Below are positions 32,081-33,668 of a stretch of 33,988 bases of DNA, piece by piece. Positions within the stretch are counted from its first letter, which is position 1, and each line of letters begins with the position of its first letter. The stretch is from a virus. The stretch covers positions 1 to 33,988 of IMG/VR virus record IMGVR_UViG_3300019890_000014; one strand, 5' to 3'. Below the pieces are notes generated by a model, which did no database searches, had not been told where the DNA came from, and worked only from the letters and a program-made list of their open reading frames with translations. Made by a program: the position numbers and the translations under genes.

Positions 32081-32608
32081 ATGCCCGACGACGACGAAGA
32101 CCGCGCAGCCGGTATCGCGGAAATCGCGCGTTACCTGGATTCGCTGCCGCAGCCGGGCCCGGGAAAGGGCCGCCGGTTCGCGGTGCATTCGGTGCACGCC
32201 CGCGTCATCGCCGCCGAGTGGTGGGACAAGGGCCTGCGGCTGCACCAGGACAAGGCCGTCATCTTCCCGATCCCGAGCCAGCAGCGCGGCGTGCGCCCCG
32301 GAAGCAAGCTGCTGGACTGGGTGGACGCCGGGGTGTACGGCCAGTTACTGGCCGAGCATCCCGGCGCCGCGCACGCCCTCGCCGAGGTACCCGAGAAGGC
32401 CGCAAGTCTGGAACGCCTCCAGGCCGCGCTGCGCGAGATCAACCCGGAACTCGCGGCGAAGCTGCCGACGATGACCGACGCGGAGCGTGCCGCGGCGCGC
32501 GCGGAGTTCGCGGCCCGGGTGCCGGCCGCGGTGAGGCGGCTCGCGGATCTGGCTGACCGCAACGATCGCATCCGGCAGAACTTGCAGGACGGAGTGGCTG
32601 AATCGTGA
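32081..32608 (+). CDS. tail-region hypothetical protein, 175 aa
   Basis: ATG at 32081 is preferred because GGGAGA lies a few bases upstream; ATGs at 32066 and 32069 in the same frame would add 5 or 4 residues and overlap the previous stop. The product contains GRRFAVHSVHARVIAAEWWD and a segment IFPIPSQQRGVRPGSKLLDW, then long charged helices. I recognise it only as a small protein often found between tail and lysis genes. It overlaps the lysin start by 4 bases. Confidence 0.62.
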   Translation: MPDDDEDRAAGIAEIARYLDSLPQPGPGKGRRFAVHSVHARVIAAEWWDKGLRLHQDKAVIFPIPSQQRGVRPGSKLLDWVDAGVYGQLLAEHPGAAHALAEVPEKAASLERLQAALREINPELAAKLPTMTDAERAAARAEFAARVPAAVRRLADLADRNDRIRQNLQDGVAES

Positions 32609-33429
32609 CCCTGTTCGGCATCGACATCAGCAACAACAACGGCTCCGGCATCGACCTGAATCAGGTTGCCGCCGAAGGATTCTCGTTCGTGTTCGCGAAG
32701 GTCTCCGAGGGCAACTACTTCACCGACCGGACATGGCCCGGGTACCGCGATGCCGCCCTGGCGGCCGGGCTGCTCGTCGTCGGCTATCACTACGTGATCG
32801 CGGGCGACGATCCGGACGCGCAGGCCGCCCGGTTCGCCGGTGGCGGTGGCGGCTCGGTGGCGATGCTAGATTTCGAGGACTACTCCGGCGGCCTCGCCGA
32901 GTTCTGGGCTGTCGTCGCGGCATTCGGCCGCGCCGGTATCACGATCGTGTGCTCGTATGTCCCGCACTGGTATTGGCAGCAGATCGGTTCACCGGACCTG
33001 TCGCAGGTGCCAATGCTGATCGCCTCGAGCTACGTCTCTTCGTGGGGGTACGCCGCGGCGATCTACCCGGGCGACGATGCGGCCGGCTGGGCGCCGTACG
33101 GCGGGGGCGCCCCGGACATCCTCCAGTTCACCGACAAGGCGCTCGTCGCCGGGCAATGGGTGGACGCCAACGCTTTCCGCGGCGGCCGAGACGAGCTCGC
33201 CGAACTATTCACCGCACAACCCCAAGGAGGCTGGCTCATGGCCCTAACCGATCAGCAGCAAGACGACCTGTATCAGAAGGTCTCCGACATCTGGGACCAG
33301 CTCCGCGGCCCCGGCGGTGAGGGCTGGCCACAGCTCGGGCAGAACGCGCAAGGCGCGAACCTCACGCCGGTCGACGCGCTGGCCGAACTGCAAACCGAGG
33401 TCGCCGCACTGAAGGGAACCCAGCCGTGA
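32605..33429 (+). CDS. endolysin, GH25 muramidase with C-terminal domain
   Basis: GTG at 32605 overlaps the upstream stop. The 274-aa product has a GH25 catalytic domain: FGIDISNNNG with Asp7, FVFAKVSEGNYFTD, VGYHYVIAG, AMLDFEDY with Asp89 and Glu91, and DILQFTDKALV at the end. The Asp and DxE pair are the GH25 catalytic pattern. GH25 enzymes cut the MurNAc-GlcNAc bond. From residue 212 the C-terminal region (ALTDQQQDDLYQKVSDIWDQ then GPGGEGWPQLGQNAQG) is a segment shared by actinophage lysins and probably binds the wall or mediates oligomerisation. An internal start lies at its first Met. Confidence 0.9.
   Translation: MTLFGIDISNNNGSGIDLNQVAAEGFSFVFAKVSEGNYFTDRTWPGYRDAALAAGLLVVGYHYVIAGDDPDAQAARFAGGGGGSVAMLDFEDYSGGLAEFWAVVAAFGRAGITIVCSYVPHWYWQQIGSPDLSQVPMLIASSYVSSWGYAAAIYPGDDAAGWAPYGGGAPDILQFTDKALVAGQWVDANAFRGGRDELAELFTAQPQGGWLMALTDQQQDDLYQKVSDIWDQLRGPGGEGWPQLGQNAQGANLTPVDALAELQTEVAALKGTQP
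33224..33240 (+). promoter_or_regulatory. strong internal ribosome binding site and start codon in the endolysin gene
   Basis: AAGGAGG (33224-33230) lies 7 bases before an in-frame ATG (33238-33240), matching the ideal Shine-Dalgarno sequence and spacing. It lies at the domain boundary between GH25 and the C-terminal region. The lysin's own GTG start has no equally good site, which makes the internal one stand out. Confidence 0.7.
33238..33429 (+). CDS. probable internally translated C-terminal domain of the endolysin, 63 aa
   Basis: Translation from the internal ATG would give 63 residues identical to the end of the full lysin (MALTDQQQDDLYQKVSDIWD ...). Several endolysins of Gram-positive phages are known to be made as a full-length chain plus an in-frame C-terminal fragment from an internal ribosome site, and the two assemble into a larger active complex. 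The site and the domain boundary fit that model here; it remains inference. Confidence 0.55.
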   Translation: MALTDQQQDDLYQKVSDIWDQLRGPGGEGWPQLGQNAQGANLTPVDALAELQTEVAALKGTQP

Positions 33430-33668
33430 ACAAGGTCATTTCACTGGTCGAATCGCAGCCCGCGCGCATGTATTTCTATCCGGCCGTGCTTGGGGTCGTC
33501 GCCTATCTCGTCAGCCGCGGCACCCTGGATCACGACACTGCCGATTGGATCAGCAGCATTGTCGCTGCCGTGGTCGGCATCGGAGCGACTGAGAGCGTGC
33601 ACGCGGCGGTCCGGCCGAAATCGGCGCCGCAGCCCCAGATTGAGCCGCCAGCCACGCCGAAGGTCTGA
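33426..33668 (+). CDS. holin-like two-helix membrane protein, 80 aa
   Basis: GTG at 33426 overlaps the lysin stop (GTGA). The product has two hydrophobic segments (residues 17-33, YFYPAVLGVVAYLVSRG; residues 42-60, WISSIVAAVVGIGATESVHA), a short charged loop between them and a Pro-rich hydrophilic tail, the layout of small holins that follow lysin genes in actinophages. Holin function is inferred from topology and position. Confidence 0.7.
   Translation: MNKVISLVESQPARMYFYPAVLGVVAYLVSRGTLDHDTADWISSIVAAVVGIGATESVHAAVRPKSAPQPQIEPPATPKV

Follow-up and report, generated by a model that had tools for sequence, protein, structure and literature searches.

The lysis cassette comprises the last complete genes of the 33,988-base IMG/VR record, which was analysed over its whole length and is referred to below as the window; minor tail genes lie upstream, and all features described here are on the plus strand. 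The endolysin (lysin A) gene (32605..33429) is an open reading frame with a GTG start and a stop codon at 33427-33429. Its full-length product of 274 aa matches the PHROG endolysin family phrog_3084 with an E value of 3.7e-59. Residues about 1-203 (32605..33213) constitute a GH25 muramidase catalytic region according to the Pfam match, the AF2 model and Foldseek; the PF01183 profile aligns with residues 6-141 at an E value of 2.1e-11 and scores 44.9 bits, above the cut-off of 27. The acidic residues D7, D89 and E91, which we take to be the GH25 catalytic residues, are invariant among 16 aligned relatives. The next gene of the cassette (33426..33668) encodes a holin-like membrane protein, with matches to Phage_holin_10 of Pfam (E 1.2e-4) and to a PHROG holin (E 2.7e-4) that are both below or near the cut-off, and is followed by a membrane-protein-like open reading frame truncated by the record end.

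The catalytic region is followed by an interdomain linker of residues about 204-211 (33214..33237), delimited with the AF2 model, whose codons contain the Shine-Dalgarno (SD) sequence AAGGAGG (33224..33230). A spacer of 7 nt, CTGGCTC, separates this element from an in-frame ATG (33238..33240), which is located 211 codons 3' of the GTG at 32605 and leads to the same stop codon. Initiation at this ATG would give a second product of 63 aa (33238..33429; MALTD...GWPQLGQN...LTPVDALA), composed of a helix-strand-helix C-terminal domain that was delineated by a domain alignment of 32 sequences (A2) and by AF2. The computed masses are 29.05 kDa for the full product and 6.78 kDa (pI 4.05) for the inner one; the lysin has one catalytic domain, which the fragment lacks. 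The first-pass annotation had described an AAGGAGG with 7-base spacing ahead of an in-frame ATG, placed exactly at the boundary of the GH25 and C-terminal domains, and a second product of roughly 7 kDa. All of these elements agree with our analysis, in which the Pfam GH25 match lies upstream of the ATG, the 63-residue domain downstream, and the AF2 linker just before it.

Modelled alone by AF2, the 63-residue product reaches a mean pLDDT of 92.8, with a helix at residues 5-23, a strand at 30-35 and a second helix at 44-58. Good order extends up to roughly residue 203 in the full-length model, whose pLDDT falls below 50 only at residues 206-209, just N-terminal to Met 212. As modelled, the fragment is thus a confident autonomous fold, predicted to begin directly after the only disordered linker of the chain. 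Foldseek matched the catalytic part to GH25 structures including 1jfx and 5a6s (CTP1L, rank 7 for the full-length model). With the 63-residue model, fold searches found nothing significant in the PDB (best E 9.6) or in BFVD (best E 0.14, the lysin of Rhodococcus phage Whack), and no VIA-align match had a Z of 2 or more. Sequence searches of the PDB with the domain gave E values above 0.6 only, and the Pfam search returned no annotated family. Since the PDB fold searches yielded no match, no structural relative of the C-terminal domain is known within this survey.

In the window alone, the inner start is predicted to pair with the anti-SD sequence at -11.2 kcal/mol, compared with -8.3 kcal/mol for the lysin's own GTG. 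The pattern RRGGAGG-N7-ATG occurs once on both strands against an expectation of 0.29, and AAGGAGG itself is at chance level (2 observed, 2.11 expected). When the codons of the window gene were shuffled with the protein held fixed, 11% of the shuffles matched the SD strength of the junction (p = 0.11). Because these statistics are near chance level, the comparison with relatives is what decides.

Relatives were collected with the lysin and the 63-residue domain as queries. Viral contigs gave 26, 5 and 22 loci, and bacterial genomes gave 31. Three genome groups also contained relatives (51/297 for the genus of a Mycobacterium gastri genome, 97/150 for the genus of a Nocardia seriolae genome and 56/401 for the family of a Rhodococcus triatomae genome); 26 cultured-phage regions were added. 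Among the 26 viral-contig relatives of the lysin query, the junctions compared are those other than L007, L009, L010, L020 and L021. The 121 loci with a domain match, 86 with a strong SD before the junction Met, 8 with a weak SD and 27 lacking the Met, formed 51 non-redundant clusters at 65% identity; L001 (the window again) and the short open reading frames L112 and L151 were left out of the shuffle test before clustering.

An in-frame start with an SD of -7 kcal/mol or lower is present in the 41-codon junction of 40/51 clusters, although other windows of the same open reading frames predict 9.1; at -10 kcal/mol or lower the numbers are 25 and 1.9, respectively. Some of the 40 sites are off the domain start, e.g. 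in L060 and L068. The result is similar when the junction Met is picked by alignment only, independently of the SD: 28 of the 30 clusters concerned have an SD of -7 kcal/mol or lower (median -10.1), compared with 20/146 of the other internal in-frame Mets in the same open reading frames (median -2.9; Mann-Whitney p 2e-15). Five of these clusters hold profile seeds (W, L023, L030, L031 and L002), all with an SD, and 23/25 retain a strong SD after their removal. Among Gly codons, the rare GGA accounts for 20/32 from position -5 to -3, as against 137/1022 elsewhere (p 4e-10), and protein-preserving codon shuffles combine to a Fisher p of 6e-8 over the 51 clusters. Only 10/51 single clusters reach p 0.05, because Gly-Gly and Glu-Glu linkers favour SD-like codons anyway; the test is weak per gene and useful when combined.

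The purine-rich SD and the start codon recur at the beginning of the C-terminal domain in differing peptide settings: GGA GGx before xLM, GAG GAG GAA before FM, CAG GAG GAC before DM, ACA GGA GAC before DM, and AGA GGT before PLM. Judged by its final base, the SD core is spread over the reading frame (21 cases in codon phase 0, 19 in phase 1 and 3 in phase 2) and so does not reflect a single conserved peptide. A start codon follows the SD by 4-10 nt in 42/43 measured cases. Where the junction Met is replaced by Leu, the codon is TTG in 6/6 lysins checked (TTG makes up 19/160 Leu codons in five of them), and where it is replaced by Val, the codon is GTG in 4/4, a start-codon scan having contributed to the choice of the Leu and Val sites.

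This C-terminal domain, together with its own start, is located behind GH25 (the window, L032, L054, L135), Amidase_2 (L030, L055, L062), transglycosylase (L023), Rv2525c-like hydrolase (L031, L119), GH19 (L154, L160) and C39 peptidase (L085) domains; for L022 and L038, the Pfam search gave no family. The SD persists when the catalytic domain is exchanged for an unrelated one. SD-preceded starts are also found in GH25 lysins with visibly different C-termini (L015-L018 and phages Pupper, Skog and Bunnybear, with TTG as the start in Dove, Gaia and WXIN). The junctions of L019 and L024-L027, GH25 lysins with other C-termini, have no SD-preceded start.

According to Pfam, L160, L119, L157 and the lysin of Corynebacterium phage Poushou (L167) contain, in this order, an M23 peptidase, another catalytic domain and the C-terminal domain. 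SD-preceded starts are present at both borders in all four, the first-border SD being medium in Poushou (-9.5) and L157 (-8.9), and three nested proteins from one gene are therefore predicted in at least these four relatives. Several three-domain lysins arm both junctions, and the notion of exactly one armed junction per lysin of this kind was therefore rejected. In a separate observation, lysin A of Gordonia phages Pupper (L175), Skog (L203), Bunnybear (L202), Neville (L176) and Syleon (L186) consists of two adjacent overlapping genes, split at the border that carries the inner start in other phages; in Bunnybear both products of the split finish in similar C-terminal domains. The WPQLG motif is tandemly duplicated within the C-terminal domain of L002 (3658-3906), L003 (3637-3900) and L077 (2401-2728).

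No junction site at -7 kcal/mol or lower was found in 11 of the 51 clusters (L127, L066, L183, L063, L057, L061, L186, L080, L181, L171 and L182), among which are most of the Corynebacterium members. Also notable among them is the LeBron group (L183), where the inner start is found ahead of the central catalytic domain and so lies between two catalytic domains, the position at which Catalao et al. place the LeBron inner start in the part of their paper considered here (PMC3111421). The Mycobacterium abscessus prophage lysins L004-L006, L008 and L011-L014 lack the C-terminal domain and its site. These lysins, composed of a peptidase-like region and GH25, carry CAGGAGG and a GTG exactly at the GH25 border, a signal resembling the Ms6 inner start in a further group of lysins.

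The conservation across relatives places the inner-start signal beyond chance. The signal is present, and it is conserved at the nucleotide level at the domain border over unrelated catalytic domains. The first-pass annotation had suggested that a C-terminal fragment of the lysin is translated from an internal start, and had named a lack of conservation among relatives as refuting this; related lysins do keep the site, and the proposal is supported. Judged from the sequence comparison, the inner start is very probably a working translation start, and we infer with high confidence that the signal is used for initiation.

Our preferred reading, to which we assign a probability of about 80%, is that the gene specifies two nested proteins by dual initiation on one mRNA. 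Ribosomes starting at the GTG at 32605 would synthesize the full GH25 lysin, and the AAGGAGG within the linker codons would recruit ribosomes to the ATG at 33238, giving only the C-terminal domain of 63 residues. If CTP1L, Lys170 and LysP7951 are a guide, free domains may attach to the full-length chain and provide it with more contacts to the wall, and the extra copies may raise binding avidity or tune lysis. We have moderate confidence, based on these analogies, that the domain binds the wall and that its extra copies associate with the full chain or share its target. The 2018 review, in the sections considered here, treats cell binding by mycobacteriophage C-terminal domains as not shown at that time (PMC6116114). 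Another possibility, which seems to be less likely, is that the small protein acts on its own, for instance by occupying wall sites, blocking debris-bound lysin or timing lysis, instead of associating with the full chain. According to the parts of Pinto et al. considered here (PMC9430671), LysJavan488 showed no association and the result for LysPollywog was unclear, in favour of this alternative, yet the published products made up of only a wall-binding domain formed heteromultimers.

Dual initiation has also to be weighed against the view that the signal is a relic, in which the SD and start of a formerly separate gene were carried into lysins by fusion and have no present function. Nocardia genomes contain short stand-alone genes in which the domain is followed by a long heptad-like (coiled-coil-like) region. 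Eight of the 14 regions retrieved (L188, L190, L191, L192, L194, L195, L196 and L199) start with V/M-TPEQ at the codon that corresponds by homology to the lysin inner start, each preceded by an SD of its own (-9.5 to -12.6), and the open reading frame of L188 permits no earlier start. Therefore, initiation at this codon can produce the domain by itself. The N-terminus differs in L187, L193, L197 and L198, and the other two regions are a lysin fragment (L189) and a frameshifted lysin (L200). These stand-alone genes are what a fusion scar would lead one to expect. However, decay would be expected of a scar, whereas the 51 divergent clusters maintain the SD, written in varying codons and phases and with the rare Gly codon enriched; moreover, a fusion history may hold while the start still functions. 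We thus regard a functionless relic as improbable.

Concerning the same stand-alone genes, the coiled-coil-like region of all eight ends near LPWPLSL, and the open reading frame adjacent to L199 resembles a small GTPase by eye. No phage with the binding domain split into a separate lysin gene was found among the relatives. L112 and L200 were considered as evolutionary splits and are read as decay instead: in L112 a stop codon separates the catalytic part from the C-terminal domain, and L200 has a frameshift within that domain. Both genomes are related to Mycobacterium gastri, and the inner SD and ATG remain in spite of the broken lysin.

Two further explanations seem very improbable. The motif could slow ribosomes at the domain border to aid folding, consistent with its place in the linker, but slowing needs no start codon, and one follows at the proper distance in all but one of the measured cases and is retained as TTG or GTG where Met is replaced, at sites partly scanned for start codons. 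A requirement of the protein for a Gly/acid-rich linker and Met-Ala-Leu-Thr, with the SD-like appearance as a by-product, would fit the many single genes that fail to beat the codon-shuffle null, but is hard to reconcile with linkers as varied as GGWLM, EEEFM, QEDDDM, TGDDM, RGPLM and TTGALM that all retain the SD, and with the combined shuffle and GGA statistics.

Extending the dual-initiation reading, the C-terminal domain may be regarded as a gene inside a gene. SD, start and domain would form a cassette that moves as a unit among actinophage lysins, that keeps its start on fusing behind six or more kinds of catalytic domain, that stands independently in Nocardia, and that in two-border lysins would lead to three nested proteins. 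We consider the chances of this broader proposal to be evenly balanced.

The sections of the 2018 review considered here give no clear reason for a separate wall-binding domain in mycobacteriophage-type lysins, which act under the outer mycolic layer (PMC6116114). A conserved extra supply of the C-terminal domain suggests that the reason is avidity or lysis timing, which becomes testable in laboratory phages. In addition, recombinant actinophage lysins produced from codon-optimised genes may miss a natural subunit, and the domain, for which the PDB offered no matching fold, is a worthwhile structure target as a small stand-alone protein.

Lysins of two polypeptides are well established. The CTP1L-type endolysins of Clostridium phages (CTP1L, CD27L, CS74L), as described in the literature considered, likewise combine a catalytic domain, GH25 or other, with a C-terminal domain that is produced alone from a start between the two; here this product is predicted, the phage is actinobacterial, neither sequence nor fold searches matched the C-terminal domain in the PDB, and the complex is drawn by analogy. 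Lys170 and LysIME-EF1 (Enterococcus) and LysP7951 (Streptococcus) share the arrangement of one catalytic and one C-terminal domain with a start between them, and their second product is the binding domain, although the domain families differ from ours (PMC9430671, in the parts considered). The window lysin shares with these types an SD-preceded in-frame start between the domains, and this start is conserved in homologues. According to Pinto et al. 2022, in the sections considered here, an inner start is predicted in about half of the lysins of Gram-positive and mycobacterial phages, and the cases listed in which the second product is only a binding domain all belong to Enterococcus, Clostridium, Lactococcus and Streptococcus phages (PMC9430671). 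No test of conservation at the codon level over exchanged catalytic domains is described in those sections, and the supplementary list of that paper may already hold lysins of the present group. The open-licence PMC literature, in the parts considered (including PMC3314691, PMC3111421, PMC4777826, PMC12203907, PMC6116114, PMC9671378 and PMC9430671), yielded no actinophage lysin with a product consisting of the C-terminal domain only. The first-pass annotation was aware of no general rule of internal starts in actinophage GH25 lysins. This has to be corrected in so far as in-frame inner starts are documented for the mycobacteriophages Ms6, Corndog and Pollywog, although those starts are located between catalytic domains and not before the C-terminal domain. 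In the Ms6 LysA type, which includes LeBron, the inner start as described precedes the central catalytic domain, so that the short product remains an enzyme, whereas the window lysin has no pair of catalytic domains and its inner product has none. In the papers considered, the actinophage precedents lie between catalytic domains and the binding-only cases come from outside the actinophages; the new aspect of the present case would be an actinophage inner start placed before the C-terminal domain.
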